The notes under the pieces were generated by a model. The model worked only from the letters and a program-made list of their open reading frames with translations. It was not told the origin of the DNA and did not search any database. A DNA stretch of 64,000 nucleotides from NCBI RefSeq assembly GCF_010015585.1, contig NW_022985069.1:977528-1041527 (forward strand), in the 5' to 3' direction. Shown one piece after another: positions 9,142 to 31,119 of this stretch; position 1 is the stretch's first letter; every line of letters begins with the position of its first letter. A program made the position numbers and the translations under genes. This DNA is from Eremomyces bilateralis CBS 781.70 (taxonomy: Eukaryota; Ascomycota; Dothideomycetes; Eremomycetales; Eremomycetaceae).

Positions 9142-10513
9142 CTATATATTCCTGAGCCTAACAACCATTCTCTTCCCTCGAGTTTTCCCTTTTTTCAAGA
9201 TCTCCAAGCCTCTCTCGACTTGGCTAAGTCCGCCCTCCAAGACCTCTAAGTCCGGAAGCCTGAGGCTTGAACAGTTGATTAATTCGTTGAGCTTCTGTGC
9301 ATAGATGGCTGCTTCTTCATCCAGGACAAATCTTTTCATCTCCACCGTCTCCACCTGGACATGCTCCGGTATTTCCTCATCGTTCGCCATCATGGCGAGA
9401 GGTGCAAATCGGACTCTCGGGGTCTCACCTTTGCTCTCTTCAGTTGCGCGGCAAGTTTGAAGACACAATCCAGCGGTTTTCGGGCCAACCAAATCAATTA
9501 CCCGGCTGAGTCTGCCACTGGTCACTGCTCGAATTTCCTCCACAATCTCTTCCGCCGTCCGGTCATCGCGTACTACGACGTGGTCTGCTCCGAGTGATGT
9601 AGAGAGAGCTGCAGTACGACCCGAACAGACTGTAATGACTCTTAAGCCAGAGTGGATGGCGATTTGAGTCGCAAATTGACCTGTTACGGTACTTCCACCC
9701 CAAATCAGAAACCACTCCCCCACACCTGGCCTAGACGAAGCGGGAGAAACGCTGTAGTAGCCAGAATCCAGCGAATGTGGTGTTTCCGTCCCCAAAGAAT
9801 GCTCTGACGATTCAGGGCTCTTTGGATTTGGATCCGGATCTGGCATCGGTACATCCATCCATTTCCAGAGAGCCATAGCAGCAGTGAGGGCGCCGACGCC
9901 CAAGCAAGCTGCCTGCTCGAAGCTGAGGTCCGCGGGTATTGGAAGCACAGTGTGTTGAGGGACGATGATGTACTCTTGGAAACATCCGGCACGGACGTCT
10001 CGGTAGTACGTCGAAGTCCACACACGGTCTCCGGGTTTTACATGGTGGACGTTTTTCCCAACCTTGGCGACCGTGCCCGATGATTCTCTGCCAGTAATCT
10101 AACAATGGTTAGTACAAGCGGTTGTGAATGGTGAGGACACCTACCCATGGAAATGATGGCAAGCAGAAGTTGTATTCGACAGACTTCCAATCAATCGGAT
10201 TGAGGCCGACGGCATGATTCCTGATCATGACTTCATTGTCGTCTCGGATCTCCGGGACTGGGTAGTCGTCGCGGAGTGCGTACTCCCCCCTCCGCGCCAC
10301 GGTAAGTGCTTGTTGTACTTGTGGAGGCGATAATGATGTGTTTGCCGCTGGCTTTAAAGAATGTTTTGAAAATGTAGGTGCTTGCTTTTCCGATATCTCA
10401 ATCCCAACGATCGTGGTGGGTGTAGGAAGGTCTGACTTCTTTGCAAGCCTAAAAATTCGTCGTATTCGCGCTCGTAAGCGCCTGAGAGAGCTATGATCAG
10501 GCGTTATAGCCAT
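9142..10513 (-). CDS. medium-chain zinc-type alcohol dehydrogenase / enoyl reductase
   Basis: Two exons, 10513-10145 and 10098-9142, with a 46-base intron (GTAGGT...TTAG), give 441 residues. The GroES-like part has the V-G-L-N-P-I-D-W-K-S-V motif of the toxD/trans-enoyl-reductase branch and G-R-E-S-S-G-T-V. The Rossmann part has W-G-G-S-T-V-T-G-Q-F-A-T-Q-I-A, typical of NAD(P)H-dependent quinone/enoyl reductases. The structural-zinc cysteines are absent, as is usual in this branch. An approximately 30-residue Pro/Ser-rich insert sits before the nucleotide-binding domain, and the first ~65 residues (basic) precede the usual family start. It is the outermost gene of the putative cluster, and its promoter holds two CCGACGG sites. 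Substrate unknown. Confidence 0.85.
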
Positions 10514-10857
10514 GCTGGTGAATATTGAACACCTAGAGCCGCTTCGAATAGGATCTGCAACGAAAGAGACGATACCGAGTGATTGACTTCTAAAATTCTG
10601 GTTGGGAAATGGCGATACGCACTTTGTACTCCCAATGGAAAGGATTAAATAAATAACAACGTACTATGTAAAGCAGTTTTCCAACTATTGCAACGTCAAC
10701 GCTCCTTATTCGGCTCAGTCCGTATTACAAAATCTGCTCGACAACGGCAGGATCGGGTGTCTCTTCCTAGGAACTGGTTACTGGTACCCCGTGCGGATGT
10801 GACAGCGAGCGGCTAGAGTAGTCTACTTTTGTCCATTCTGTTTGAAAGCCTCAAGAG

Positions 10858-10864
10858 CCGACGG
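10858..10864. promoter_or_regulatory. CCG-N-CGG site (candidate Zn2Cys6 site)
   Basis: CCGACGG in the context GCCGACGGC, 345 bases upstream of the dehydrogenase start. Everted CGG triplets with a 1-base gap. Confidence 0.4.
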
Positions 10865-10956
10865 CAGAGGACTTAAGCTTGCTGGACTGGGTTAGCGTTC
10901 GCGTCCTTGGAATGATGGGGAGGTTGAAGAGGGCGGTGGCCGGTTCGGAACTGCTT

Positions 10957-10963
10957 CCGACGG
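10957..10963. promoter_or_regulatory. CCG-N-CGG site (candidate Zn2Cys6 site)
   Basis: CCGACGG in the context TTCCGACGGAT, followed 8 bases later by a second TCCGACG. Confidence 0.4.
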
Positions 10964-11068
10964 ATTATGTTCCGACGAGCTGCAGCCACGGCGAATAGAA
11001 TTGGACATTGACAATTTCACAAGTATGACGATATTCTGGACGCGCAAGATTGAAGATAGTAGCAAGAA

Positions 11069-13418
11069 TTAAATTGAATACGCTTCGTGACTCATCTCAA
11101 ATCCGATCAGGTCAAAGCCGCCCTGAATCGTGACCATGTTCTCCATAGCTCCAAACGTGTCGTCAAAGATAGCGTCGTTGAACTCCGGCCGAGTTGCATG
11201 TAGTTGCATCCGTTGTGTTTCGTCCGGAATGACCTGTGTCATCGGAGTGTCCATCATGGGAGCCACCATCATGGCTCCAGAGTGCCCGATTGAACCGTTC
11301 CCACCAAGTTCTGGTACTCGGACGTCCGGGACCGGATTTCCCGCCATGTCCGCAACCATTGCTGTTACAGCGGCCGATCCCTCTTCATTTCCATCCACGG
11401 ACATGAACAGCCCACGATTGAGTTGCTTGATGGCTCGACGAGGCTCGTACTTACTCTCCTTGATTGATTCGAGGACCGACTGCTTGACGGCTTCGTACAT
11501 ATCGCGATATTTCTTGGCTCCCGGCCAGCGCTCGGTGATGATGTATAGGACGATGCTGCAAGCATTCATGTCATTTGATGTGGTGATGCTGAAGACTTCC
11601 GATGGTGAAATCCAAGTACAGTAGACCAAAGTGAGACCTAAACGAATTAGCACATTGAAAATGAAATCTGGAGGGCGAAAACCGACCCGCAAGAAACACA
11701 GAATGCAGCGCCATGAGAGAAAACCCGACCGAGATGCTCTGGTGGAGCTTCTTGTACGTCTGGCAAACTCCTCCGCAAGCTTCCGCACATTTCATGATCA
11801 AACTAAGCGGCAGCTTTGGACCGGAAAGGACCGGATGCAGTAAGAACCGGAGGCACTTGTAATAGTACACCATGTAGTAGCCATACCCGTCTATGACTTT
11901 TGTGTCGGTTGTGGTAGTAGCCTTGTCGGCATTGTGTTCCCGTGCGTCTCTAGGGATCCGGTCTCTCCAATCGTCCAACTCTTTGATGAAGGTCTCGACA
12001 TCCGACTCGGAAGCACCCGAAGGCCGGTCAACACGGTATATGGTTTGTTGAATCTTGGATTCGATGCGACGTAGACAGCAGATGTGGATGAAGCAGCTGA
12101 GCGATGTGGACACAGCAGGCGGGTCGCTCTCGGATTTGGTTGCGACCTGCGCGGCCTCGAAGACTGCCGCGTCCTGGACGGATTCGTCGACATCGAGGGG
12201 TAGTTCAACATCGATATCCTGATCCGAAATGGCAAATGGGCGGCCTAGAATGATGGATATTTGTCGGTCTAGACAATAGCAGGTCCAGAAGATTCTCTTT
12301 CGCATCTCGTCTTCCAGGATCGAAAAGCGCTTGGGAGGACTCCGGCGGTGCATACCGAGGTCGATGCAAGTCCTCATAGCCAATCCGATACAAGTCCACG
12401 CTCCAGGCCCTTGGGGCGCCCTCAGGCTATAGATAGCGAGGAGGATCAAGATCTGGACGGAACGCACGTCGTGGTACTGGAGGACCTCGTCGAGATGCTC
12501 AATCCCTGCATCGTGATGTTTTTCGCAATAGAATGGCCCTGTCTGGCCAGTCGTCTCCAGGAACCGACCTCCGCTAGCATAGATGAGATGAAGTGCACTC
12601 TTCTCATACGGATCTGTGAGCGAGGCCCTACGAGTGTGTAGGATGCGGATGTAGTTGGAGTGAAATATCGGCCATCGGGTAGAAATGTGCTTCAGATATC
12701 CCTTGAGAAGCCGGTTTGCGGTGTCCTGCGGAATGCTTGCCGTTTCAACATAAGTATCTTCAATACTTGCATACGACAGTGATCTTGGGCTTAAATGCTC
12801 CCCGGGCTGAAGGTCAGGGCCGAAGTGTTCTTTGCATTTTACCAACGACCCTACCAGCTTACTCATAGTAATGCTGGATGACGCGCCAATGTATCCGCCA
12901 CTAGCCTGAAGCGACAGATCCCGCAGAATGTCTACCACCCCAGTACCTTCTTCCGACCTTCCCTCCCCGCTCCAGTCGAGCACTTCTCTTTTACCGTGGT
13001 CAGACTGGGGACTCTCGACGTGCGGTCGTTTGGCCGGTCTACGAATCTCAGAGGGTTCGGAAGAATCGGAGTGGTGGGCGGCTCGAAGTTGACGCCAGCG
13101 GGACTGGCCTTCATCAGCGATTCTTTCTCGCATCAAGACGGCCTCAAGTTCAGCGACACGGTTCTTCGCGGCTTTGTAATAGTCATCCTGACTCCTAGAG
13201 AGCGGCCTCGTGGGCTTGATGTATTTGCAAATGGCATCGAAGCTGGCACAATTGGAACAGGAAGGTGTCCGGCCATCACATTTCTGCTTCCGAGTCTTGC
13301 ATCGCTGGCAGGCCACGGCGACCCGGGCACGTCGTGCCGTTCTGGGTCTATCAGCTGTCGGCCCGTCCATTTGCTCGAGCGGGTTCTCGGATATAGCTGT
13401 GGGCGGAGTAGTAACCAT
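11069..13418 (-). CDS. Zn2Cys6 transcription factor with fungal-specific TF domain
   Basis: Exons 13418-11687 and 11637-11069 (intron 49 bases) give 766 residues. Six cysteines at 37, 40, 47, 54, 57 and 64 show the canonical C-X2-C-X6-C-X6-C-X2-C-X6-C spacing, with a basic linker and a short coiled coil (about 80-105) for dimerisation. The middle-homology region (Fungal_trans) runs from about 240 to 480 and includes the T-C-Y-C-L-D-R-Q-I-S block and G-R-P-F-A-I. The acidic, Met-rich C-terminus may activate transcription. It lies inside the gene group and is the obvious candidate for its pathway-specific activator; that role is inferred from position. Its own 501-base promoter has no CCG-N-CGG copy that I saw. 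Confidence 0.93.
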
Positions 13419-13919
13419 GATGCTCTGGTTAAAGACGCGCTATCTTTTCACAGAATCGAAAAAGGTAGTAGTAGTCGAGAGAGATCCGGAGGAGATCCCA
13501 GGATATGGGATCCTCTCCGGCCTCGAAGGGAGATAGTCATATGTTGGGTCATAGTCGATTATGCAACGCAACTGGGATAGGAGAAAGATAAGGGAGGGAC
13601 TTGAGCGATAGGAGATAAGTTCATGTATTATAGTGTAGTGTCAAAAACGGCGGAGTGGAGCTGGGAGGTACATTTAGCATGACTCATGAGCACCGAGGGG
13701 AACCTGTGGAGAATATATGTATCATGGGCTCATGGCTCATGAGTGTCGAGGTAGTGTTAAAAATGGGCCTTAAGGCTTGGCGTTTGAAGAGCTTTGAATT
13801 GTCACGTGGTTCGACTTTCAACCGCTCCTCAATTTACGGAACAAACGACACCAGATCAAAATCCCGGATACTATCAGGTATTACATACACAACCGCTATC
13901 CCTAGACATCTATCCTCGA
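13419..13919 (-). promoter_or_regulatory. promoter region of the Zn2Cys6 regulator
   Basis: 501 bases with two related 15-base direct copies, 13683-13697 and 13736-13750 (CTCATGAG then CGAG), three mismatches apart. No CCG-N-CGG motif was seen. Confidence 0.35.
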
Positions 13920-15800
13920 CTATAGGGTTCCCTTCTCCAGAAAAGCAGTCGGAATGTCGATATGCTTGCTACGTAAGTACTCCGCAATGAACTTCCCCAG
14001 GATATCATATGTTGCATTGGCAGTCACTCCCCGATCAAGGTGATCATGCAGCAAGAAATGAACCGCCCAGAGATTGGGAAACTCCATTCGATCGATTTTC
14101 TGGCCCTTGTAGTCCTCGCCCATGAGTTCCTTGAATTTCTCCGAGCTCAGCAGGCTTCGCAGCCACGGCCATTCCGACGCGTCGCGAGCGAAGAATCCGA
14201 CATTGCAGTTCGAGCCTTTGTCGCCCGCCCTCGCGTATACAACCCGCCCCAGAGGGGCACGAGTCGTTGGTCCGAACTCTCCTAGGTCCACTGCATTTGT
14301 TGTCTCGTACGACGGTTGCGTCCATGGGTGCTCGATGGTCTCGGCTGCCGGAGGTACAATCACGTCGTCGTGGCCTGGTTTCGAGAAGTGGATGATTTGC
14401 GTCGGTTGTGGAATCAAGGTTGGGAAGTACTCGGTATACTGACAATGATGTTAGCTCGATCTCCGCGCATATTCCCTTTTTGGAACACCTACTGGCTTTG
14501 GCACCGCCGTTCGGAGGTCAGCGTGAAATGTAGCGGCTGGATATGTGTGCATGTTCATATCGAGCGCCGGGCGTATGAAGTTGGCTTCCGACAATGCTTC
14601 TGCTTCCTTTGCCTGAGCGAACAGTCGCATATCCACTGTTGCTGCGTTCTGATTTCGAGGATTCTCTGATGCCGTGCCGTACACTGACACATCCCAGAGA
14701 CTGAACTTGGAGAGTCTGGCTGTGCCAAAGCTGTGGCGCAGCTGCGTTTCTAGTAGCTTGACCTTCTCGTCAATATCTAGCCCGACCATCGCCCAATGGA
14801 CTTCGGCTTGGTACCCTCCAAAGGCCGTAAGCCCCATTTTCGTCGTTGCCGGCGGTGGCCGTCCGGTAATGCCGGAGAGTCGGACTCGGTTTGGTCCCAG
14901 CTGCGTGAGGCTAGCCTGGTCGATGACAGCTGTGACATCGCAGTTGAGGTAATACATTCCCTGGATCTCGTACAGAAGCTGTTCCTTGCAGGTTTCCACG
15001 CTCACCAAGCCACCCGTTCCCTCGGGCTTCGTGATGACGACGCCTCCTTCGCTATCGATTTCTGCAATGGGGTATCCAAAGTTGTTGATTCCATTCCAGT
15101 CTAGGCTTTTCCACCCAGTGAAGTTTCCGCCAGTCACATAGACTGAGCATTCAATCAAGTGGCCGGCAATTAATGACTGCGCGAGTTGGTCATAATTCGA
15201 CCTCGACCATCCATGCCACCACGCGGCAGCTCCAATGATTGGCGAAGCATCTGCCACGCGGCCACAGATGACGATTGACGCACCTTCGCTGAAAGCTCTG
15301 GCAATGGCCATCCCGCCGAGATAGCACTGCCCGAACAGGGGCTCGAACTCCCATTCTGCGAGCGTCTTTCCGGTTGAAACATGTCGGTAGCTGGAAGGAT
15401 CTTGCTTCAAGTCCTCCTTAACTTGGCTCAGAACGGAATCGCCTTCAATCCACGCCACGTTCAAGCCCAGTCCCTTCTCTTCCACCATCTTGATGACCAC
15501 ATTATATAGCTCTTTTGTTGCTACAACTCCAGCGTTGCATGCAAGCTTAAGTCCTTTCTTAGCAATTCCTTCAAGGGCCGGCTCCAAGGCTTCTAAAAAG
15601 CTGTCTTCATAGCCAATCCCGAGTCCGTTTGCCACGTTGTAGGCTCGAGTTGGCATGTTCAGCTCGCTCATCCAGTCCCCGACGAGCACGTCGACCGACT
15701 CCGACATGTTGACCGCATTGGAAAGGGCATCGCGTTTGTCACAAGGTGAGCCAGAAATGTTCATAATACGCACAGGGCGCGTTGGAGGATGGGACACCAT
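13920..15800 (-). CDS. AtuA-like protein (DUF1446, acyclic terpene utilisation family)
   Basis: Exons 15800-14493 and 14438-13920 (54-base intron) give 608 residues. The N-terminal ~450 residues match the AtuA core: N-I-S-G-S-P-C-D, L-V-G-D-W-M-S-E, a N-A-G-V block, W-I-E-G-D, I-V-I-C-G-R-V-A-D-A-S, and V-T-G-G-N-F. The C-terminal ~120 residues are the AtuA-associated domain: V-V-Y-A-R-A-G-D-K-G-S-N-C-N-V-G-F, then L-L-H-D-H-L-D-R-G-V. In bacteria AtuA is encoded with the geranyl-CoA carboxylase genes; its reaction is unsettled. Fungal homologues are common beside catabolic genes. It is divergent from the Old Yellow Enzyme across a shared 887-base promoter. Confidence 0.92.
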
Positions 15801-16118
15801 GTTGTCAATCTAGCAAAATCACAGTATGTTGGGGGAGGAGATGAAAAGGTGTATGTGAGCACTATTCAATTCTCTGCAAATATCAAATCTCGGTCTTATG
15901 TCTAACAGCAATAGATAGCAGTCTTGCCATATTATTGCCATTCGAACCCCACCGGAGCCGTTTGCGAGTTCGGATGTTTCTGGCAGCCATCCGGCAGGGA
16001 CCATGGACGGCAGCAGAATCCGCTCGCGTCCGCTCATATGTTTCCCAGGTTGGAACCGGCGGGGTTATGCGTAGTTCTGGAATTGACATTGTCGATGCCT
16101 TGAAATCGTTATCATTTC

Positions 16119-16125
16119 CCGTCGG
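16119..16125. promoter_or_regulatory. CCG-N-CGG site (candidate Zn2Cys6 site)
   Basis: CCGTCGG, 10 bases from a second dyad, TCCGCTACGGA (16135-16145), which has a 3-base gap. Confidence 0.4.
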
Positions 16126-16434
16126 TACCTAGACTCCGCTACGGACGATTAGACCGAACCCGCTACTATAGAAGACCAATATCTAGAGAAGATCGAGATC
16201 CAACGGAATGGTGAGCTGACCGTCGCTCTTGGAGTGCTCCGTATGTATCCTGCCAGTCGCGGATAACGAATCATGCTAATCGTGCAGGTGTCACAGGTTT
16301 GACTACGTTCTTTAGCATGATCGGAAAATAGAATGTACAGCCAATGGCCGTATTACAGCCCTTGAAACCAGGGTTCCGTTTCGTTAGGTATCTCGGTCCC
16401 GATCTGGACTCTAGATCCAAAACATCCCGGTCTT

Positions 16435-16441
16435 CCGACGG
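16435..16441. promoter_or_regulatory. CCG-N-CGG site (candidate Zn2Cys6 site)
   Basis: CCGACGG at the centre of a perfect 13-base palindrome CTTCCGACGGAAG, 247 bases before the Old Yellow Enzyme start. Confidence 0.45.
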
Positions 16442-16687
16442 AAGTGCTCCCGACAGGACAAAGCTGCATCACGTGACTAGACTGAGGGTCGGCATGCCGA
16501 TCCTATAGCGAAACAACCTATGACATAGTGTCTATTACGGAATACAGGACCACAAATTAGGTAACATGGTCCGCACGCTAACAAAGGTCGGTATACTTTT
16601 CTCCAAGTCTTTCCGGGCAGATGCGTTGAACACCATCTCAATCCCATGCTCGTCCCTAATTGAGGTGTTTAACTAGCAACGACAGCG

Positions 16688-18102
16688 ATGGCCTCTACAC
16701 GCTCCCAACCGCTTCTATTTCAGCCACTGAAAATTGCCAATGGAACGATTGAGCTGAAACATCGAGTGATTCTGGCCCCCCTAACTCGCAATCGAGGAGT
16801 TCCCGTTTTCGAAGATACCCCAGAGAAGCCAAACCGAGACTGGTATCCCGATGAATTGGTTACTGAATACTATCAGCAAAGAGCAACGGAAGGTGGCCTT
16901 CTGATTAGCGAAGGTTTACCGCCGTCTCTACAGGTACTTTGTTTCTTACCCCACGGGCCACCTTTCCATCCGTAACTGATATCCCACTCTTCAAGGGCGG
17001 CGGAATGCCGGGCACCACCGGTTTGTATCTCCCCGAACATATTGTCGGTTGGAAGAAAGTCGTCGAAGCAGTACACGCCAAGGGCGGATACATCTATGCC
17101 CAATTGTGGCACTCTGGTCGCACAACCATCGCACCAACCACCGGCCTGCCGAGTGTCGCGCCATCAGCAGTGAAATGGGACGATCCAAACGAAGAATACC
17201 CGTACCCGCCGCCGGGCCACGACAAACGGGCCAAGTACCGAGATCATCCGCCGGTTGAATTGACCGTTAGCGATATCAAGCGCGTCATTGGCGAGTACTG
17301 CGAGGCTGCCCGTCGTGCAGTTGAGGAATGCGGTTTCGACGGAGTTGAGGTCCATGGAGGGAATGGGTACCTCCCAGAGCAGTTCCTGTCGTCCAATGTC
17401 AACATGCGGAACGATGATTATGGTGGAAGTCCGGAGAAGCGGTGTAGATTCGTTGTAGAATTGATGGAGGAGCTAGCCAAGACCGCCGGGCAAGAGAAAG
17501 TGGCACTCCGGTTAAGTCCTTTCGGGCTATTTAACCAAGCCCGGGGCTCGCAGAGGATGGGGACGTGGAGCCACCTCTGCAAAGAACTTAAGACGAAGAT
17601 TCCGCACATGTCTTACGTGTCATTCATCGAGCCGGTATGTTGTTCCCTTTTTCGTGCACACTTGAGGTTAAGCTGATTGATGGACTGCCAGAGATATGAA
17701 CAGGTCTTCAGCACGGCGGAGAAGGACTCATTTCTCGGGTCATGGGGTCTAGAAACTGTCGACCTTTCCCACTTCCGGAAGGTTTTTGGCGACACTCCAT
17801 TCTTCAGTGCCGGAGGCTGGTACGACGGAAACTTTTCGGGAGTTTTGGAGTCCGGCCGGTACGACGCCTTGTTGTTCGGGCGCTGGTTTATCAGTAACCC
17901 TGATCTGGTTCGCCGGTTAAGGGAAGGTTTACCGTTGAGGATGTATGAGCGGGATAGATTTTACGGGCCGTTTCCAGACAGGGAAAGAGGCTATACTGAT
18001 TATACTGCCTGGGATGTGGAAAAGGAACACAGTGCAACCGTGGACGGTATAAAGGGGGACGTTGCAACTACTTCTACAGTTGAAGTAAAGGCATCAGCAT
18101 GA
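16688..18102 (+). CDS. Old Yellow Enzyme family NADH:flavin oxidoreductase
   Basis: Exons 16688-16933, 16996-17634 and 17692-18102 (introns 62 and 57 bases) give 431 residues of an FMN TIM barrel. Visible are L-A-P-L-T-R-N-R near 35, E-Y-Y-Q-Q-R-A-T-E-G-G-L-L-I-S-E-G, Q-L-W-H-S-G-R near 118, and G-V-E-V-H-G-G-N-G-Y-L-P-E-Q-F-L near 200 with the substrate-binding pair as H-x-x-N. D-D-Y-G-G-S and R-L-S-P-F-G follow. The family reduces activated C=C bonds with NAD(P)H. No targeting signal is seen. OYE members occur in fungal nitrogen-heterocycle catabolic clusters, where they are proposed to reduce ring intermediates; here that role is inference. Confidence 0.94.
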
Positions 18103-18564: not shown

Positions 18565-20194
18565 CTAGGTCTTAACTACTACGGGTTCCTTCCCAACCAC
18601 GACGCTGCCTTGTGTCAGAGGAACTTCAATGTCGTTCGTTTTGCTTTCACCGTTGGTTCCGTTCACACTCTCTTTTACCGCTTGCTCCGCTTTGAAGGCT
18701 TCGATTGTGTCCCCTTCAAACCCACTCCCCCACTTGAACTTGTGCCCGTAGTGATCATCCCTCAGACGAGTCTGACCCTTGACTCCATACAGGTTCTCCC
18801 GCAATGTACCTCCTTCCACGTCATAGTCTTCCCACATGAGACCTCTCTTTACTAACTCGGGTCGCAGAAGGTAGACAACGTCCTCGAATGTGCCAGGGCT
18901 GGTCACATAAGCAATGTTAAAGCCATCAACATCTGCTTCGTTGATCCACTGCTCAAATACATCGGCCACCATCTCTGGAGTGCCAACAGGGGCCGGATGG
19001 AAGCCACCAAGAGCCATGGTCTCGCCTAGTCTTCGAGGAGTCCAAGGTTCCGTGTTACCGGTTGCTTTGTTGAAGTTCTCCAAGAACGTATGGGTGGCGT
19101 CATCTCCAGGAGCATCTTTTAACTCAAAGACTTCGTCGAGCGGGAAGCGGGCCAGATCAATTCCGGTATAGCCAGAAAACTGTGCAAGACCGCCAACGAC
19201 GTCTGCGTCCTGTCTTGCCTGTTCATACTTCGCTTGCGCCTCTTCCAGTGTTCGTCCAATAATTGGGGTGATACCGACAAAGAACTTGAGAGATTGGGGA
19301 TCGCGCCCTTCGGCAGCTGCGTCGGCACGGATCTGAGCAATTGATCCGGCAGTCTGTGAGGGGACCAAGCCTCCAACATAGATGGCTTCAGCATGCTTAG
19401 CGCCAAATGCACGACCCATCTTGGATGTTCCGGCTTGGAAGAGAACCGGAGTGCGTTGAGGAGAAGGGTGAGTTTGGGAGGCGGCCGAAGCTTTCAGATA
19501 TTTGCCTTGACCCTCAATTAGTATCACGACTCTTCGATAACTGGAACACCGCAAACATACCCTTATGCTCAATTTTCTTCACCTTCGAGGGCTCAAAAGC
19601 AACTCTGTTCTCCGCGTCCCAGACAACCGCATCATCCGCCCAAGAGCTCTCCCAGAACTTATAGACCAGGTCCATGTATTCATGAGCCACTGCATACCGT
19701 TCATCATGCGGCACAACATCATCTGCACCCAACGCTGTCGCTGCGGCCTTGCTCCAGCTCGTGACAACATTCCATGCAACTCGTCCATTTGTGAGATGAT
19801 CCAAGGAGCTGAAAGTCCGTGCCAGAATGTACGGTGTCAGGTAGCTGGTGCTGCCGGTGACGCCGAAACCAACGGACTTGGTGACGGATGCCATCGCCGG
19901 AATGAGAACCATCGGGTCCAATCCAGCGGAATGTGCACCTGCACGGAGAATCGGGGCAGTGCTTCTCGAGTAGACATCAAAAAGAGAATAGGAATCCGCA
20001 AAGAAGATGAAGCTAATTTTTCCTTCCTCAGCGAGGCGAGCAAGATTCAGCCAGTATGGCAGTCGGTCTTTGCCGGAAGTCCGGTCGTATGGTGAGCGCC
20101 ATTGGCCTGGCGACATATGGGACCCAGTGCACGCATTTTCGAAGAAGTTGAGGTATATCCTCTTCTTTGGGGGGGAGACTGTGGGCGGAGACAT
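18565..20194 (-). CDS. FMNH2-dependent monooxygenase, NtaA/SnaA/DszA (luciferase-like) family
   Basis: Exons 20194-19561 and 19505-18565 (55-base intron) give 524 residues. N-terminal family signals are the N-F-F-E-N-A strand, H-M-S-P-G-Q-W, F-F-A-D-S-Y-S, G-F-G-V-T-G-S-T-S-Y and L-D-H-L-T-N-G-R-V-A-W-N-V-V-T-S. The C-terminal half has T-P-V-L-F-Q-A-G-T-S, A-E-A-I-Y-V-G-G, and G-T-P-E-M-V-A-D. These enzymes use free FMNH2 made by a partner reductase and O2 to cleave or hydroxylate N- or S-containing substrates (nitrilotriacetate, pristinamycin, dibenzothiophene sulfone). The flavin-reductase gene at 26755 is a natural partner. The last ~60 residues are low complexity. Confidence 0.93.
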
Positions 20195-20809: not shown

Positions 20810-22641
20810 ATGGCAGAATACCGAGAAAGACCACCCCAGGAATCTACGATACAGCAACCACAAGAACTTGTCGACACTCAAGACTATTCCAACCAATATT
20901 CATTCTCAAGACTGGTTATAATTCTTGCGGCGCTGGCATTTACTCTCTTTGTTTCTTTCATAGATCAAACCAGTGTTTCGACGGCACTGCCAGCAATTGC
21001 CAAATCGCTCGATGCGTACGAGTCGATATCATGGGTTGGCACCTCATTTCTGGTTGCAAATACGTCGTTTCAACTGATAAATGGCCGGTTAAGTGACATA
21101 TTTGGTCGGAAAAACTGTCTCATGTTAGTGTCTTGAAATAGAATAGCAAAAACATTTGCTGATTGATCAGGACTTGTATGGCTCTGCTTGCAATCGGAGA
21201 CTTGCTGTGTGGATTTGCAAAGACTCCAGCGCAGCTATATGTGTTTAGAGGAATTGCTGGTGTTGGTGCTGGTGGAATTAATAGGTAGGCGCCTCTTAAC
21301 CTTTGTATGGAATCATTGCTGATTAACGATTAGTTTGGTTATGATCATGTTCACAGACATGACGACCCTAGAGCAGCGAGGAAAGTACCAGGGACTTCTT
21401 GAGACCAACATAGCTTTAGGAAATGGAGTTGGACCCCTAATAGGGGGCGCCTTCTCACAGTCATCCGCAACATGGCGATGGGCATTTTGGTTCGTCGTGC
21501 CAGTCACAGTGATGGCAGCAGTGCCAACCTACCTCACTTCACCCAAAAGCAAGTTGGTGGGAAATATGTCTGAGAAGCTGAGAATGATAGATTATGGAGG
21601 CATGGTGCTCAGTCTCTCTTGTGTCATTTTCCTGCTTGTAAGTCAACCACTCCTAAATCATTCCAGTGCCAGAATAACCAAATAACAATTGACCAGATTC
21701 CCATTTCATCCGGCGGAACCACGTGGAGCTGGTCATCACCTCTCATCATATCTTTTCTTGTGATCGGAGCCTGTCTTGTAGTATTATTCGTCGTCTTCGA
21801 ATGGAAGTATGCCAAGTATCCAGTTATGCCTCTACGAGTATTCGACAGGCGTTCGGCAAAGATCCTCTTCATGCACAATCTCTTAACCGGCATAGTTTAT
21901 TACTCGGACCTTTATTACCTGCCGTTATATTTCCAAGTCGTCCTTGGCCATTCACCCTTGGAATCTGGCCTGCTTATCCTGCCACTTATCCTCGGATTCT
22001 CAGCATCTTCCACAACGGCTGGATTTCTCCTTTCCCGCCTGGGACGCTGCAATCCTGTTATCTGGGCTGGCTACGTGATGTGGACTGCAGGCGCAGGAAC
22101 CCACATCGCCTTCGGATCGTCGACTAGCATCGGAGTCACCATTGGATGTCTTTTGGTCGAGGGATTCGGTATCGGATTTTCGTTCCAGCCAGTTATGATC
22201 GCACTACTGGCTAATACCAGGAAAGAAGACCGAGCCGTTGTTACTGGAATGCGTAACTTTATCAGGACTGTCGGTGGGGCAATCGGACTGGCCATCTGCG
22301 CAGCAATTATCAACAACGTGCTGCAGGCTAACCTACCACCGTCCATGCCAAGTCAGAGCGGGATGGAAATGATCGGCAAGCTGGACCAATTGACTCCGGG
22401 GGAGCAGAGCGCACTCAGGGAGGCGTACATGAAGGGTTTGGACATTGTATTCCGTCTCGCTTGCCCGTTGATAGGATTCTGTCTTCTCACAAGCGCGGCG
22501 TTGACTGATGTTCCGTTAGCAACGGCACACGAACCGCAGGAGCAAAGCGGGCCTGCAATCGACGAGAAAGACTCGGGGGCTGCAAGTTCCTCACCTGCAA
22601 AAACTGAGATCACAATTGATGTGGACTTGCAAAGGAAATGA
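20810..22641 (+). CDS. MFS transporter, DHA2 (14-helix drug:H+ antiporter) type
   Basis: Four exons, 20810-21123, 21171-21284, 21334-21637 and 21697-22641 (introns 47, 49, 59), give 558 residues. Motif C-like and family signals are F-I-D-Q-T-S-V-S-T-A-L-P-A-I near 50, W-V-G-T-S-F-L-V-A, G-R-L-S-D-I-F-G-R-K after helix 2 (motif A), and the E-Q-R-G-K-Y-Q-G-L-L loop with G-P-L-I-G-G-A-F typical of DHA2. The C-tail is Ser/Glu-rich. It may export a toxic intermediate or import a substrate; the sequence does not say which. It is divergent from the monooxygenase gene, suggesting co-regulation. Confidence 0.95.
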
Positions 22642-22806
22642 CGATAGATATCAATGATATTTAACTAATAGTTAAACATTGTAAAAAGCATCCTTGAAAG
22701 CAAGCTATTTTGAAACCCTGCACTAGACTATGGTGGTTCTATGTGCAGTTTAATATCTACGGTACGGCACCATACAACATACCAGTGTCTCCAGTGTCTC
22801 CAATGT

Positions 22807-23682
22807 CTATTGGTATTTAGTCAGAAATGGAGACAAAGCTTTCGCAATGCCTTCTACATCTCTATCCGGCTCAAAATTGCCGCCAGTAATCTCAATCGCT
22901 TGAACTCCTTCTCTCAAACCATGGACATGTCCAAAGTACCTCCATAGAACATCGTCTCTTGCACACATCAGCAAGATTGGACAGGAGACCTGTTTATATA
23001 AATCCTCGCTTTTCTGAGCCCAGACTGCCCCGTAAATCAGCATCCGTCCTTTCCATGCCCGAATATGATCCACTGCTTCCCTCTGCCACAACGTGATGTC
23101 TTCACCAACCCCCATATTGCCGAGATACTCCCAGGTCTTCAACAAATGTGATCCATCCCGGGCCGGTTCGTTGAATGGCTTGAAGAATATTTCCTTCATC
23201 GCTGCTCTTTCTTCCACCGACATCACTGTTGGCCCGACAAGGCAAATAGTCGCCACGAACTCAGGATACCGGGCAGCAAATTCGACCGCGAGAACTGCTC
23301 CGGAATGGTGTCCGATGATATGGCATGGCGTCGTGCACCCATTGCCCGCGAGTCCGAGAGCTTCAAATGCTTGCATGAAGGTGGCGGAATACCATACCGT
23401 CCCTTGTTCTTCGATCTCCGCTATCGCGGCTTTCGACGGGTCGAAACTCCCTCCGAATCCGGGCATGTCCGGAGCATAGCATGCGTAGCCTTGCGATGCA
23501 TAGTATTGCATGAGTAACTCATAGCTTGCAGATGATGAAGCAGACTTGTGTAAGAAGATAATTGGTTCCTTTTGTATGGTGGTTTGGGTGGAAGGAAAGA
23601 TATATCGGTAGTGAATCTGGCCGTGGGAGGTGTCGACATACCCCTTTTTCAAGACTGGGGAAAGTAATTTCTGGGCAGGCAT
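22807..23682 (-). CDS. alpha/beta-hydrolase-fold protein with non-canonical catalytic residues
   Basis: A single exon of 291 residues from the ATG at 23682; an in-frame ATG at 23763 would add 27 residues that look like leader. The fold is clear: I-I-F-L-H-K-S-A-S-S near 41, A-P-D-M-P-G-F-G-G-S near 70, the nucleophile elbow G-H-H-S-G at 124-128, and P-I-L-L-M-C-A-R-D-D with the usual acid. The central elbow position is His, not Ser/Asp/Cys, and the place of the catalytic His reads G-G-N-F. Such GHHxG proteins form a known subset of the superfamily whose chemistry is unclear. Within the cluster it could be a C-C hydrolase-like or non-catalytic partner, comparable in context only to RutD of uracil breakdown. 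Confidence 0.85.
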   Translation of the reverse strand: MPAQKLLSPVLKKGYVDTSHGQIHYRYIFPSTQTTIQKEPIIFLHKSASSSASYELLMQYYASQGYACYAPDMPGFGGSFDPSKAAIAEIEEQGTVWYSATFMQAFEALGLAGNGCTTPCHIIGHHSGAVLAVEFAARYPEFVATICLVGPTVMSVEERAAMKEIFFKPFNEPARDGSHLLKTWEYLGNMGVGEDITLWQREAVDHIRAWKGRMLIYGAVWAQKSEDLYKQVSCPILLMCARDDVLWRYFGHVHGLREGVQAIEITGGNFEPDRDVEGIAKALSPFLTKYQ

Positions 23683-23955: not shown

Positions 23956-25933
23956 TTACCCAGCCATACCCTTCAGCGACGGCGTGATGCTTGCCTTTTC
24001 CACATCATTCGGTGTATCTGTACCGCTGGGGGAAAGGCCTTCAATGACGTGACCCTCATTTCCGAATGGAACCCTTTCGTATGGCTTTCCAGGCGGCGGG
24101 CTGATGAGACAGATAATGAAGTATATCAATCCAGCGCCAATGAAGCCGATAAACCAGGCTGTCTGGAATAGTTTGAGCCATGCAGGCGCTAACTTTGCAC
24201 CACCAGTGGCTACAACGAATCCCGCTTTTATGGTAGTTAGTAGCACGAACTGCAACTAGTTTGAATGTGAAACTTACGGAAACTGGGGAAGATCCCAATG
24301 GTCCAGGCGGTGAATGCTCTCCAGTTCAGCCCGAAAGTGTACCAGTAAATTGAACTCTTGTCACCGATGTACAGATGCGGAACGGTCCAGTTTCGCCGTC
24401 GGACGAACCAACTGTCGCAAGCGTTAGTGATTCGTGGTTCATTTTGGCACTGGAATCCTACAAGTCGACCGCATTGATCGCGGCAAGAGGCGACACAAAC
24501 ATGCCGAAAGAGTTCAGCACGGTAATGAAATTGCCAGGTGCGTTGACGAATCGCCATGGATTGATCAGATATCCGATGAGGCACATGATAAGACTACCAC
24601 GAGTAACGTCAACCCATCTCGGAGCGAGGGATGCAAGATCCATGCCGGCGGCGACTGAATTCTGGACTAGATTAACCTGGAATAATCAGTACTGAAATTT
24701 AGGAGATCGCGCTGAGCTAGTCGCTTACCGAAATCTGACTCAAGAAGAAGCCTAGTCCGGCAAAAAAGCAGCCGGCGCGGGTGGCAGCATTGTAATTATC
24801 GGAGAGAAGGAATTCTAGTAGTGTGATGGGTTGCCAGATCTCCTTGCCGTACATTGACTTGACGGCGCTCGTAGCGAATGTTCCAAGAGTTGCGGTGACC
24901 GTAATCGCAATGGGAACAGTGAACAGTTGGTTCAGCACAGGAGTTCTCTTGGTCTTTGCATATCGAGTCCAGTCGGCTTGTCTACGGCGTGTCAGCGGGC
25001 TATACAATAGTTTACATATGGTTTGACAAACCTGATTGCGCTACCTGTCCAGGAACCAGCAACTGAACTGACTGCTTGCAACATCTTGAACTTTCGGGTA
25101 CTGTCATCGACCTGGATCGATGCAGCAAGAGCAGAAGCGCCTCCATTGGAGGCAACTGCCCATATAAAGAGCCCGACAATGGTGGCAAGAACGGCGCCAA
25201 AAGCAAACCAGAGTAACCTATGCATTTTGGATGGATGAATGAGCATCAAAGGAGTGAAGATCATGATGTAAATGATGAACCCGATGAGCTGATTCGTGGT
25301 GATGGCTGCTTCGAGAGGAAGAGTGTTCCTCATATTTTGGAACGAAGGGAATATGGCTGAAAGGACAACTTTGACTGCAAGGCCGCCCCAGTATGCTTGA
25401 ATGCCGAAGCTACATAGACAATTAGGAGGCTAGATAGTGCCATAGAGAGACAAGCTTACTAGATGAAGTTGACGAAGCATTTAATCATGACGACAAAGAA
25501 GGATCCATACATTCCAAACGCAACCCGGCTCATCATTGGAAAGCCAATATGATATTGAACCTGCCAACTTTAGTTAGAGAGGCTTGAGGCGGATGGTGAA
25601 AGGTTGACTTACCCCTGGCTCTGCGCAAATAAAGGAAATAAGGCCTGCAAGAACTGATCCAACAAAGACCATGCCAATGGTCTCTCCAGCTGAGAGTCCA
25701 TTCGCGAGGTTACTCGATCCCAGTGTCCAGGCAGAGACGTTCACTGTTGCTGCAATCCAGAATCCGAAGTAGCCGCGCTGTGTGTAGTTGCGCTCCTCTG
25801 GGGGCGAGGGTGCACAATCGTGGTTCGTCCATCTGTTGAAAGTTGCTTCATCATCCCCTTCCTGCTTGACCTCCAAGGAGGTGAAAGTCCGGGGAATATG
25901 GACACGAGCCCTCAACCCGTTTAGGGCATTCAT
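23956..25933 (-). CDS. NCS1 family permease (Fur-type uracil/allantoin/nucleobase)
   Basis: Seven exons: 25933-25613, 25560-25460, 25409-25032, 24981-24729, 24676-24462, 24411-24278 and 24224-23956, giving 556 residues. Family signals in order: N-R-W-T-N-H-D before helix 1, A-T-V-N-V-S-A-W-T-L-G-S-S, G-F-P-M-M-S-R-V-A-F-G, F-G-I-Q-A-Y-W-G-G, F-V-N-A-P-G-N-F-I-T-V-L-N-S-F-G, and a final Y-W-Y-T-F-G-L-N-W-R-A block. An upstream in-frame ATG (26083) is less likely because the family starts near M-N-A-L-N-G-L-R. NCS1 permeases import nucleobases, hydantoins, allantoin or vitamins, which points the cluster to a nitrogen-ring substrate. It is divergent from the flavin-reductase gene. Confidence 0.94.
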
Positions 25934-26754: not shown

Positions 26755-27663
26755 ATGGCTTTTTCCCAAATCACGAACCTCCACGTCGAGGCATTCGACA
26801 AGGAAGCGTTGGTCCAACGGAACCCACATGCCGAGTTTCCAGCCGTCGAGGCCTCTCGTCCTGACTACGATCCGTCCAAATTCTGGGAGTACAGCAAAAC
26901 CCCTAAACCGAACTGGAAGCCGGGAAGTGGTTCTATATGCGATGCATGGAAGTCGCATACTCTCATTGCCATCGATCCCGATTCGCCAAACCGGACACAG
27001 AATCAGAACTACAAGTTGATGATTTCATCCACGGTTCCACGGCCCATTGCTCTCGTCAGCACAGTATCACGAGAGGGTGTACATAACCTGGCCCCGTTTT
27101 CCTACTTCAACACCGTCAGTGTGGATCCACCGCTTTACTCCGTCAGCTTCGTGGGGACAGAAGCCAATGACAGCTTGACCAACGTTCTCGACTCTGGGGA
27201 GTGCTGCATCTCTATCGTCAGCGACTGGTTTCTCGAAGCAGCAAACATGACGTCGGTGAACACCCCTCCACACGTGAGCGAATGGCCACTATCCGGACTG
27301 CATCCAGTCCATTCGCACATGGTCAAGCCACCTCATGTGGGAGAATCGGCGTTCAGCATCGAATGCCATGTGCACAGCACTATCCCAATCTACTCCCAGA
27401 GAGAAGTCCACGACGACGGACGTAAAGTGAGGACAGCTACCATGGTATTGTTTCGGGCAGTTATGTACCATGTGCGAGACGACGCCATCAACGATCGAAT
27501 GGAAACAGTAGATATTGGGGTGCTAAGGCCGGTATGGAGAGGAGGAGGTATTACATATGGCAGTTGTTTTGGCGGTTGGGAGACAGAAAGACCGAAGGCC
27601 TTTAGACATCTAGTGGAGCAGGAGGATGTCAAAGCTGTGCTTAACCAATTGCAAGTTTCATAG
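26755..27663 (+). CDS. flavin reductase-like (FMN-binding split barrel) protein
   Basis: A single exon of 302 residues. The split-barrel domain spans about 88-265: S-S-T-V-P-R-P-I-A-L-V-S-T-V-S at its start, N-L-A-P-F-S-Y-F-N-T-V-S-V-D-P-P, and a D-S-G-E-C-C-I-S-I-V strand. This is the DIM6/NTAB type that reduces or binds FMN. The first ~85 residues are an extension. With the NtaA-type monooxygenase 6.5 kb away it would complete a two-component system that hands over FMNH2; this pairing is inference from the family and the neighbourhood. A GGAGGT-rich C-terminal segment has nothing unusual. Confidence 0.92.
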   Translation: MAFSQITNLHVEAFDKEALVQRNPHAEFPAVEASRPDYDPSKFWEYSKTPKPNWKPGSGSICDAWKSHTLIAIDPDSPNRTQNQNYKLMISSTVPRPIALVSTVSREGVHNLAPFSYFNTVSVDPPLYSVSFVGTEANDSLTNVLDSGECCISIVSDWFLEAANMTSVNTPPHVSEWPLSGLHPVHSHMVKPPHVGESAFSIECHVHSTIPIYSQREVHDDGRKVRTATMVLFRAVMYHVRDDAINDRMETVDIGVLRPVWRGGGITYGSCFGGWETERPKAFRHLVEQEDVKAVLNQLQVS

Positions 27664-27848
27664 ACGTCGATAGAACCAAGATCTCTCTGGATGATCTCTC
27701 TGGGTGTTCGAGTCCATGTGGCAGACTCCACGCCTTTGGAATCGTGTTACTCCGGGAGTATGTGTGGAATCAAAGTGCTCAGTGACGCAAGTTCTATAAT
27801 CTACATTCATTTCTTCGCTACATAAACATAAAATAACAGAGCCTTTAT

Positions 27849-28871
27849 TTAAGCTAACTGGCCCTTCTTGTACGGGAACTTCTCTCGGAAATTTTCCGCA
27901 ATCTGTGTCCTCGTTGCAACCCATACTCCCTCCTTTGTAGCAATGTACTCGACAAACTTCTGCAGGGCTGCAAACCGGGCAGGCTTCCCAATGCATCGAC
28001 AGTGCAACCCGACCGTCATCATCTTGGGCATTCCTTCCACACCCTCCTGATACAGCACGTCAAAAGCGCCCTTGACATGATCGTAGAAATCCATCGGCGC
28101 GCTGAATCCCGTGGCAACGTTGAACTTGTAGTCGTTGCAGTCGTATGAGTACGGAACCATCAGCATTCCTTGAGGGTTTGGCTCGTCCTTCTCGGCAGGT
28201 ACGTCCACCCAGTACGGAATGTCGTCGGCATATGAGTCGGATTGCCAAAGGAGAGGGAGGCCCATTTCCTTGTAAACATCCCATATAAGAGCATGAGATC
28301 GCGGTGAAAGACGTCCGTAGTACCACCCTTTGGGGTAGACACCGCTGACGTCTTTGATGGCTTTGATTCCCTTGCGAATGTATTCCTTCTCCTCTTCCGG
28401 GCCAACCGTGTGATAATCGATCCAGCGGTAGGCGTGCGATGCAATGTCGTGACCATTCTCCACCGAGGACTTGGCGACGGCGGGATTGTCTTCGAGGGCT
28501 TTGCCAACGGCATACAGAGTATATTTCATATTGTGCTTGTTGAACAAGCGAATGAGGCGCCAGACGCCGGCCCGGGCCCCGTAGTCATACTCGGATTCGA
28601 TATTGACTGCTCGCTCCTGGACATGCGGAGTTCCGCCCGGAGCTTCCCACAGGTGGGTCTCAGAATGAACGTCGCCGTTCAAGACAGTATGTTCTGCTCC
28701 TTCCTCATAGTTGATGACGAACGAGACGGCGATCTTCGCATTATTGGGCCACTGGGGATGGTGGGACTTCTCGCCGTATCCGATGAGGTCGCGAGGGAAG
28801 TCATAGTGGTCGTTCCATTCATATGGTGCAGCCTTCAAGGCATCCGATCCAAGATTGTATGGCGTAGACAT
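27849..28871 (-). CDS. PuuE-type polysaccharide-deacetylase family hydrolase (allantoinase / cyclic-imide hydrolase-like)
   Basis: A single exon of 340 residues. NodB-fold signals match the PuuE branch: I-A-V-S-F-V-I-N-Y-E-E-G-A-E near 48, Y-D-Y-G-A-R-A-G-V-W-R-L-I-R-L-F, G-H-D-I-A-S-H-A-Y-R-W-I-D-Y near 140, and G-W-Y-Y-G-R-L-S-P-R-S. This branch hydrolyses ring amides, as in cofactor-independent allantoinase, and related fungal proteins are cyclic imidases, rather than deacetylating chitin. No signal peptide, so intracellular. It is divergent from the amidase across 521 bases, a natural order of ring opening followed by amide hydrolysis. The exact substrate cannot be read from sequence. Confidence 0.9.
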   Translation of the reverse strand: MSTPYNLGSDALKAAPYEWNDHYDFPRDLIGYGEKSHHPQWPNNAKIAVSFVINYEEGAEHTVLNGDVHSETHLWEAPGGTPHVQERAVNIESEYDYGARAGVWRLIRLFNKHNMKYTLYAVGKALEDNPAVAKSSVENGHDIASHAYRWIDYHTVGPEEEKEYIRKGIKAIKDVSGVYPKGWYYGRLSPRSHALIWDVYKEMGLPLLWQSDSYADDIPYWVDVPAEKDEPNPQGMLMVPYSYDCNDYKFNVATGFSAPMDFYDHVKGAFDVLYQEGVEGMPKMMTVGLHCRCIGKPARFAALQKFVEYIATKEGVWVATRTQIAENFREKFPYKKGQLA

Positions 28872-29392
28872 ATTGCTTGAGGAAGAGAGAGGGTAGGAAG
28901 AAGAATAGGATGTCGAAGGTCACGACTGTCTCGCCGCGAACAATGGTCCTACTTCTACTCACCTGTAATCCTAGATAAGCCACAATCAGCTCTTCTATTC
29001 TCGCTTGAACCTCTATCGTCACCTGAATTAGCAATCGCCCCGCCCCTCTAAATGGGAGGAGCAACTATTCCGACGGGTGATCGGATTCGGCACATCCGAT
29101 AGATAGTCGGGGCACCAGAGATGATACCGAACGGCCCGGCATCGGCTTGGATCATAGTGCTCTTCGAGATGCGATAAGAGCAATTGAACAAAACCGTGAG
29201 CTGCATATTGACTTCTATAGCCTCCTACCTTTTCCAGTGTTCTGAGCTCCAAAGAATTTGACAGCAGCAAGCCGGGAAGTTGACAGTTCGCTCAAATCAC
29301 GTATCTCCATAGCCCGCCTACAATTTTAGATCCTGTTACCCCTGGAGACGATACCTTACCCTTTTTGGACGCCAGTCAGTGACATCACAGTC
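28872..29392. promoter_or_regulatory. shared divergent promoter, PuuE-type hydrolase and amidase
   Basis: 521 bases with CCGACGG at 29070-29076 (context TTCCGACGGGT), then several CGG triplets within 60 bases. Confidence 0.5.
29070..29076. promoter_or_regulatory. CCG-N-CGG site (candidate Zn2Cys6 site)
   Basis: CCGACGG in the context TTCCGACGG, the same flank as the sites at 10957 and 16435. Confidence 0.4.
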
Positions 29393-31119
29393 ATGTCCGT
29401 CTTATTCACGACTATCTCAGAGTAGGCTCTGCACCACCAAACTTGTATGTTGGTATCCAATCTCACAATATTTTAAGGAAGAACCCGGTCACCGTCAATG
29501 ACGTCTGCAGCGCTCTTGCTAAAGTTGGCGGCGGCGTCAAACCTCGGGCTGAGGATGAAGCCGATTTCGTAAAGCTATTGGCGGCGGTACGTGGTGGCCT
29601 ATCGAGTTGCCGCCTGAAAATGCTAATAGTGACCGCATCGTAGTGCCACGATTGTGCCGCTTCCATTGACGCTCTGCCTGACTACGATGTTCCAACGGAC
29701 GGCAAACGGTTCCCGCGCAAAAATGTCCATCGCGTTCAACCGTCCGAGCAAGTGCTTGGCGCCGCGTGGGCGCACACCTTTTCCATCAAAGATGATTTCA
29801 TTCAAGGGCCGTTGAGCGGCAAGACCGTGTGTCTGAAAGACTGCATCTGCGTAGCAGGCGTACCACAGATCCTGGGAACGGAGATCATCGAGCCCTGGGA
29901 GCCAACCAGCGACGCAACAGTCGTGACGAGGACGCTAGAGGCTGGTGGCGAGATTGTAGGCACGGCCAACTGCGAGAACTGGTGTCAGAGCACCAGCTCC
30001 TTTTCCAGCGCGCATGGGACGGTAGAGAACCCACATGCAGCTGGGTACTCGGCGGGAGGAAGCACCTCTGGTGCTTCGGCACTGGTTGGAGCAGGCCTGG
30101 TCGACATCGCGATTGGCGCAGATCAAGGAGGAAGCATTCGAGTTCCCGCTGCACTTTGCGGCTGCGTGGGTCTGAAGCCGACGTTTGGACTTGTGCCCTA
30201 TACCGGCATCGCGAGCAACGACGCCATCAATGACCATGCTGGACCTCTTGCTAGCAACACGATGGACACGGCCTTGTGTCTCGACGCCATAAGCGGATAC
30301 GATGGTATTGACGACCGCTGCTTCGGAGCGCCCAAGCCCAGTAGCACAACCTTTGCCGCCGACTTGGCTGCCCCATCAGCAGCCGATCTCCGTGGCTTCA
30401 GGATTGGGATCCTTAAAGAAGCTTTTGAGCAAGCCACTGTTGAGCCGCGAATGAAGACCGCCGTGTTATCCGCGGCAAACCGATTCAAGGAGCTCGGTGC
30501 CACTGTCGCAGAGGTCTCCGTCCCAGATCATAATCTCGGAACTGCGATATGGACCATACAGCAACGGATCGCCGGGAGTCTATCGCTCCTCGGGCATACA
30601 ACAGGCCGACGCGGGCAAGGTTTGCCCGCGCTCCATGCTGCACGACTACCCTGGACGCAGGAGAAGTTCGACAAGTGCTTCCCAACCACGCAAAACACCA
30701 TGCTGAACGGCCTGTATTTGATGGAGCGTTTCCCATCCATCTACGCAAAGACGTTGAACCTCATCCGCCGCCTCACAGATTCATACGACCGGGTGTTGAA
30801 GGACTACGACGTGTTAATTCTCCCGACGACGCCGTTCGTCGCTCCGCGCCATGGCACACTCACTACCCCGATCGCAACCATTGAACCAACGGTAGGATTG
30901 ACCTGCAACACGGCCATGTTCGACGCCACGGGACATCCTGCGCTGACACTCCCTGTTGGCTGGCTGAGCGCAAAGGACAATAAGGACATATATCTGCCTG
31001 TTGGGATGCAAGTTATAGGCGGTATGTGGGAAGATGGCAAGGTATTGCGGGCTGCGTATGTCTGGGAGCAATCTTTTGACTGGAAAGCCATGAAGCCCGT
31101 GGTTAACGGCATGCACTGA
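29393..31119 (+). CDS. amidase signature (AS) family amidase
   Basis: Three exons, 29393-29421, 29478-29586 and 29644-31119 (introns 56 and 57), give 537 residues. The 29-base first exon is needed to supply an ATG. The catalytic Ser-cisSer-Lys triad is visible: Lys111 in C-L-K-D-C, Ser186 in A-G-G-S-T-S-G, Ser210 in G-A-D-Q-G-G-S-I-R-V-P-A, followed by G-C-V-G-L-K-P-T-F-G. AS enzymes hydrolyse linear amides to acid and ammonia. No signal peptide or GPI site. Beside a ring-opening hydrolase it would release ammonium from the opened amide, and it is the last gene of the group. Confidence 0.94.

Follow-up and report, generated by a model that had tools for sequence, protein, structure and literature searches.

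What does a group of eleven adjacent genes do that shares parts with the nicotinate and uracil breakdown systems and equals neither? The question is raised by positions 9142-31119 of a 64-kb stretch of the Eremomyces bilateralis CBS 781.70 genome (contig NW_022985069.1, 977,528 to 1,041,527; the whole stretch of 64,000 nucleotides is called the window below). We recovered all eleven genes from stop-to-stop frames and a simple splice model, with introns modelled, and in a profile search of the modelled proteins 11/11 exceeded a Pfam cut-off, in agreement with the families named by a first-pass annotation of this DNA. The genes encode a luciferase-like monooxygenase dependent on reduced flavin mononucleotide (FMNH2; FMO), a flavin reductase (FlvR), a PuuE-type hydrolase (PuuE), an amidase, an Old Yellow Enzyme (OYE), an AtuA family protein, an NCS1 permease, a DHA2-type transporter, an alpha/beta hydrolase (ABH), a zinc-binding dehydrogenase-like protein (MDR) and a Zn2Cys6 transcription factor. 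Many are divergently arranged, as had also been noted, forming the four pairs AtuA/OYE, FMO/DHA2, NCS1/FlvR and PuuE/amidase. The best reading of these sequences is of a real cluster, partly conserved in fungi and previously undescribed. As to function, we propose a candidate fungal catabolic set for a small cyclic imide- or ureide-like N-heterocycle, a proposal whose chances we judge to be evenly balanced. Its computed basis consists of the parts themselves, the hydrolase-amidase pairing, the closeness of FMO to FlvR, the co-conservation of FMO and AtuA, and the AtuA fold.

Results

A PuuE-branch hydrolase is divergent from a paired amidase

The amidase pairing is the strongest functional clue. 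Across the 26.6-Mb host genome (all such searches ignored introns), the amidase subfamily comprises three genes whose identity is ≥ 50% over long stretches; long matches further down have 28-33% identity, and a few short fragments reach 49%. Each of the three PuuE/imidase-type genes, in the window and at two further loci (L108 and L109), is divergent from one of these three amidases. Under a rough uniform model, three hydrolase-amidase pairs within 3 kb would arise by chance with a probability of about 7e-11, a value that is too small because two of the pairs look like recent duplicates of each other and hence are not independent. The best solved relative of the cluster amidase is likewise an amidase (3a1k). 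Since all three subfamily amidases are divergent from imidase-type hydrolases, the step with the best support is the opening of a ring and then hydrolysis of the half-amide, the amidase being predicted to act after the ring-amide hydrolase. To this extent the pathway first suggested for the locus, with ring opening and then ammonia release, stood.

The imidase-type genes at L108 (C1:310901-320800) and L109 (C1:1027000-1036900) are near-identical over the stretches compared, and frames next to them, in L107 and L110, are similar as well; the two imidase-amidase pairs look like the product of a segmental duplication. By eye, these two C1 genes (at 0.31 and 1.04 Mb) appear to resemble HxnM, the imide-opening enzyme of the nicotinate (hxn) system, more than the cluster PuuE does.

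For the cluster hydrolase itself, an HxnM-like identity was considered and rejected. Against solved structures, the protein scored 303.9 bits with 3cl6 (PuuE) and 51.8 bits with 3qbu, the closest solved homolog of HxnM according to the accessible part of PMC9304392, which places it in the PuuE branch and rules out an HxnM/CIH-type cyclic imide hydrolase. Its homology to PuuE allantoinase is clear, at about 304-313 bits with the three solved PuuE relatives, but it stays below the curated PuuE allantoinase equivalog score (Table 1) and differs in the GWYTGR motif, where 17/17 aligned fungal sequences carry Y and 4/4 bacterial ones (three solved and one from Aminobacter) carry T. The PuuE model (TIGR03212) matched three genes genome-wide, the two outside the cluster being short and weak matches. 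A canonical allantoinase is encoded elsewhere, on C16 (420.8 bits, neighbours in frame included, versus 357.85), and would leave the PuuE protein free for another substrate; together with the missed curated cut-off, it led us to reject PuuE as the host's allantoinase.

FMO and FlvR as a two-component monooxygenase

FMO is the sole Bac_luciferase (PF00296) protein found in the genome. It passes the curated score of the NtaA/DmoA subfamily (Table 1), and the solved structures closest to it carry the names of dimethyl-sulfide and alkane monooxygenases. FlvR, one of four flavin reductase matches genome-wide, is located ∼7.8 kb from FMO, between NCS1 and PuuE. Because the best solved relative of FlvR is component B of nitrilotriacetate (NTA) monooxygenase (3bpk, 106.8 bits), it is plausible that the two form a two-component FMNH2 monooxygenase system whose coupling we predict; the FMNH2-using flavin monooxygenase of the first-pass annotation was thus supported. 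While both proteins resemble the NtaA/NtaB and DmoA systems in these respects, FMO is here clustered with PuuE, amidase, OYE and AtuA. In the rough uniform model, the proximity to FMO of one AtuA (four in the genome), FlvR (four), imidase-type (three) or amidase-subfamily (three) gene has a chance probability of 0.0014 to 0.0024 each.

Conserved gene pairs in other fungi

Linkage in other fungi was read from protein listings, using locus tags and equal reported lengths of contigs, two proteins on contigs of the same length being taken to share one. The first-pass annotation had made its case depend on co-occurrence in other genomes, and this was found, for FMO/PuuE in Rhinocladiella similis and for FMO/AtuA in nine ascomycetes. 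The order to which it had pointed, Eurotiales, was not the right one, as the nearest FMO relative is that of R. similis, a member of the Chaetothyriales. The FMO (RBB50_000964) and PuuE (RBB50_000959) genes of this species are five tags apart, matching the FMO-DHA2-ABH-NCS1-FlvR-PuuE spacing in E. bilateralis, with the intervening genes judged by tags only.

An FMO of ≥ 68% identity is listed for 19 named species; nine of these have AtuA among the matches listed, and in 9/9 the two proteins are on contigs of the same length. In contrast, none of the 14 species with a lower-identity FMO and AtuA among the matches listed has them on a shared contig (Fisher p 1.2e-6 for 9/9 versus 0/14, with four species in both groups). 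The locus tags of FMO and AtuA are consecutive or nearly so in Verruconis (08008/08009), Elasticomyces (003225/003224) and Saxophila (001060/001062). Three of the nine species were checked and belong to Dothideomycetes, Leotiomycetes and Sordariomycetes; two further contigs, of 13,661 and 27,683 bases, also match for FMO and AtuA. Among the 120 matches listed for each protein, PuuE and FMO contigs matched in three species (in one of them the FMO has 59% identity), and PuuE and AtuA contigs in two species plus one further contig. In Mytilinidion, FMO, AtuA and PuuE are all on contigs of one length. Judged from these listings, the pair conserved across classes is FMO and AtuA, the PuuE half being less widely attached.

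A modelled AtuA ortholog has a citramalate lyase fold

AtuA had been assigned no role by the first-pass annotation. The predicted model of an AtuA ortholog (P0241, 77% identical to cluster AtuA) adopts the same fold as citramalate lyase subunit A (PDB 9evf/9erq). The likeness is one of fold; identity is 15%, and fungal AtuA adds a C-terminal ferredoxin-like domain for which there was no PDB sequence match. Because of this fold, the model suggests that AtuA performs a closing C-C cleavage of the citramalate-lyase type.

Eight AtuA matches were found at four places in the genome. One place (L013/L014, C1:1830000-1849800) harbours a second divergent OYE/AtuA pair, in which OYE is 34% and AtuA, in pieces, about 44-58% identical to the cluster proteins. 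Its neighbours are epoxide hydrolase, SDR, MFS and DUF3425 genes and, by eye, a Baeyer-Villiger-like frame, so this is possibly a terpenoid catabolic cluster. A transposase-like remnant separates OYE from AtuA there, and the AtuA paralog on C5 is flanked by two near-identical 554-codon transposase-like frames (L009 4121-5785 and L010 1855-3519). Near the C11 paralog there is a coenzyme A (CoA)-transferase family III gene (L012 2310-3635), consistent with some AtuA proteins having a CoA-linked chemistry.

Comparison with the hxn and Rut systems

The closest known systems are the hxn regulon of Aspergillus nidulans and the single 11-gene hxn cluster of Cyphellophora europaea. According to the accessible parts of PMC9304392 and PMC8478523, these likewise feature an OYE, imide opening by a polysaccharide-deacetylase-superfamily enzyme followed by an amidase, transporters and divergent couples; at the family level, the cluster OYE agrees with the ene reductase HxnT (Table 1). 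However, the cluster imide enzyme comes from another branch (PuuE, not HxnM), the regulator is of the Zn2Cys6 type in place of the Cys2/His2 HxnR (PMC5746545, accessible part), and an NtaA-type two-component monooxygenase and AtuA are present without a molybdenum (Mo)-hydroxylase match. Specifically, the family of the Mo-cofactor hydroxylase HxnS had no match among the eleven genes, to which that search was confined. The uracil (Rut) system is similar in outline, with a luciferase-like monooxygenase, a flavin reductase, an alpha/beta hydrolase and a permease, but FMO is not RutA (TIGR03612, 61.8 versus 498.3 bits), the alpha/beta hydrolase is not RutD (TIGR03611, 19.0 versus 238.5 bits), and the isochorismatase-type family of RutB gave no Pfam match among the eleven genes. 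Membership in hxn is thus largely refuted on HxnM, HxnS and HxnR, and membership in Rut on RutA, RutB and RutD. These results uphold the initial description of a set with parts common to both systems, equal to neither, and with no Mo-hydroxylase or isochorismatase among the eleven. That description had also noted that no published fungal cluster of this kind was known to its author; the literature searched, in which few subscription papers were within reach, contained no fungal cluster of matching composition. The accessible part of a report on the Fusarium lactam/lactone response (PMC10512309) lists other clusters, with no such gene set seen there.

Bacterial samples

The cluster combination is absent from the bacterial samples searched, an absence that is only sampled for bacteria as a whole. 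We kept 80 of 187 bacterial AtuA relatives and ran the eleven proteins on these loci by tblastn; weak partner matches appeared in six (FMO at 25-27% in three; DHA2, MDR and amidase in one each). Plasmid records gave 313 PuuE, 472 FMO and 178 FlvR matches. Inspected by eye, the 60 PuuE and 60 FMO matches listed had three records in common, the distance between the two genes being about 20 kb in Aminobacter sp. MSH1 pUSP2 and > 160 kb in the other two. The pUSP2 region (L098, 95000-127000) is outwardly cluster-like, with a PuuE and amidase operon near a luciferase-like (LLM) monooxygenase and flavin reductase pair; its amidase has 33% identity over 187 residues to the cluster amidase, and cluster FlvR had no match in this region at E 1e-6. 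Eight other FMO plasmid neighbourhoods contained no PuuE by tblastn; three of the eight carry sulfur genes by annotation. Likewise, by eye among the matches listed, no PuuE-FMO pair was seen in 25 hand-picked genomes (two or more PuuE matches each, from 136 with a match among 385 searched), 12 of which have an FMO match. A Rhodococcus antarcticus plasmid (L101) carries an NtaA-type monooxygenase gene, with formamidase and alpha/beta hydrolase genes 5-7 kb upstream.

Gene coordinates, promoter motif and flanking genes

The features are listed in Table 1; gene ends are approximate for MDR, the Zn2Cys6 regulator and DHA2. Neither a tRNA nor an Rfam match reaching the gathering score was found in the 64-kb window.

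Table 1. Cluster genes and candidate regulator site, with positions in the window.
Feature	Position	Strand	Evidence
MDR zinc-binding dehydrogenase-like gene	9142..10228	-	PF00107 and PF08240 (ADH_N/ADH_zinc_N) over cut-off; 5′ end uncertain, possible start further upstream
Zn2Cys6 transcription factor gene	11069..13418	-	PF00172 (Zn_clus) and PF04082 (Fungal_trans); scored protein incomplete at C-terminus
AtuA family gene	13920..15764	-	PF07287 520.6 bits (cut-off 22.8); PF23544 56.8 bits, C-terminal AtuA ferredoxin-like domain
Palindrome TTCCGACGGAA	16433..16443	.	AtuA/OYE promoter; possible regulator site, suggestive only
OYE gene, divergent from AtuA	16688..18102	+	PF00724 241.7 bits
FMO gene, NtaA/DmoA family	18565..20194	-	PF00296; TIGR03860 450.3 bits, over cut-off 279.7
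DHA2-type MFS transporter gene, divergent from FMO	20810..22641	+	PF07690 93.4 bits, partial model
Alpha/beta hydrolase gene	22807..23682	-	PF12697 47.1 bits; solved relatives weak
NCS1 permease gene, seven modelled exons	23956..25933	-	PF02133 262.4 bits; TIGR00800 315.2 bits, below cut-off 353.1
FlvR gene, divergent from NCS1	26755..27663	+	PF01613 80.6 bits
PuuE-branch ring-amide hydrolase gene	27849..28871	-	PF01522; TIGR03212 358.6 bits, below cut-off 424.6
Amidase gene, divergent from PuuE	29393..31119	+	PF01425 275.6 bits

The pattern CCGNCGG, one of three flagged among 48 tried, occurs at five sites in 3/5 promoter regions versus 0.66 in Markov-1 shuffles (p 0.001); the site in the amidase/PuuE promoter matches only by half. 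Over the whole genome there is no enrichment of TTCCGNCGGAA (23 sites versus 35 for the reversed control), and two of the 23 sites are in the AtuA/OYE promoter (16433-16443) and in one imidase-amidase promoter (L109 7413-7423). The motif is suggestive of a candidate site for the Zn2Cys6 regulator.

To the right of the cluster lie a HET (heterokaryon incompatibility) gene (32313-34991, + strand) and a heme oxygenase family gene (36907-37995, - strand; PF01126, 42 bits), with about 5.8 kb between the latter and the amidase. Further on, at 39884-46293, there are genes of the FAD_binding_4, pyridoxal-dependent decarboxylase and 2OG-Fe(II) oxygenase families, with Brix and UPF1 genes beyond.

Discussion

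From the gene set we infer a substrate, an order of steps and roles for OYE, the alpha/beta hydrolase, NCS1, DHA2 and MDR. NCS1, for which the nearest solved structure is the hydantoin permease Mhp1 (62.8 bits), would import the N-heterocycle. FMO would oxygenate the ring using FMNH2 from FlvR, and/or OYE would reduce an activated C=C, the substrate probably having an activated double bond. The PuuE-type hydrolase would then open a ring C-N bond to give a half-amide, from which the amidase would release ammonia and a (hydroxy-)carboxylate, and AtuA would split the resulting acid in a citramalate-lyase-type reaction. DHA2 may export the compound or a toxic intermediate, and the Zn2Cys6 protein would regulate the cluster.

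Several observations weigh against this proposal. Because FMO and AtuA recur mostly without PuuE, a single pathway for all eleven genes is weakened, and this part of the original suggestion was not supported. PuuE of ≥ 70% identity occurs in ten named species, in 2/10 of which its contig matches that of FMO (among the matches listed); in Halenospora, FMO and a ≥ 70% PuuE are on different contigs. Moreover, the 120 AtuA matches listed include none from R. similis, the nearest relative, and the second OYE/AtuA pair stands among terpenoid-looking genes.

The main rival explanation is that the locus consists of two adjacent modules. One, made up of AtuA, OYE, FMO and FlvR, perhaps together with MDR and the alpha/beta hydrolase, would degrade a cyclic ketone or terpenoid; in it FMO would act like a type II Baeyer-Villiger enzyme and AtuA would be the lyase. 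In the other, NCS1, PuuE and the amidase would separately harvest imide or ureide nitrogen. This would fit the recurrence of FMO and AtuA across classes, the epoxide hydrolase, SDR, MFS and Baeyer-Villiger-like neighbours of the other OYE/AtuA pair, and the link of bacterial AtuA to terpene breakdown (PMC4847356, accessible part). However, five locus tags separate FMO from PuuE in R. similis, as here; FlvR, with which FMO probably works, is placed between NCS1 and PuuE; and the nearest solved FMO relatives are named for dimethyl sulfide and alkanes, not ring ketones. We regard two modules as possible, if somewhat unlikely.

Returning to a catabolic set for an N-heterocycle, one specific form of it, which would be a eukaryotic pathway not described before, would have substituted unsaturated cyclic imides as substrates, e.g. 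methylated maleimides from tetrapyrrole breakdown. OYE would reduce or FMO hydroxylate the ring C=C, PuuE and the half-amidase would free the nitrogen, and an AtuA/CmlA-type lyase would split the tertiary hydroxy-dicarboxylate. We consider this choice of substrate doubtful. If it were true, AtuA would gain a role in nitrogen-ring catabolism, and the nearby heme oxygenase gene may be relevant, although it may be just an ordinary neighbour.

A role in detoxification instead of nutrition, directed at an antibiotic or xenobiotic with an imide or another nitrogen ring, is improbable. The cluster does include a DHA2-type exporter, and xenobiotics are commonly degraded by OYE and NtaA-type enzymes; yet the NCS1 importer and the ammonia-releasing amidase would suit nutrition better, and, general families apart, none of the cluster genes matches a family known to inactivate drugs. 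It is very unlikely that the cluster is a variant of purine or allantoin utilization in which PuuE functions as the allantoinase and NCS1 as the permease for allantoin. The hydrolase does belong to the PuuE branch and NCS1 does match the allantoin permease model, but at 179.1 bits it is far under the cut-off of 620, PuuE is itself below the allantoinase cut-off, and a canonical allantoinase is present on C16. Furthermore, we know of no purine role for FMO, AtuA or OYE. A rearranged hxn or Rut cluster can practically be set aside, since the part types in common (OYE, imide opening, amidase and transporters; monooxygenase, flavin reductase, hydrolase and permease) come from other enzyme subfamilies under another regulator type, with key enzymes missing among the eleven.

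Few eukaryotic pathways of N-heterocycle breakdown are known. If the proposed function is true, the cluster would represent another type of fungal imide or nitrogen-ring pathway beside that for nicotinate, built on a two-component flavin monooxygenase. The analysis also names partners that are open to direct test, PuuE with the amidase and FMO with AtuA. The AtuA family is poorly understood, and its function becomes approachable through the link both to a conserved fungal monooxygenase and to the fold of citramalate lyase.

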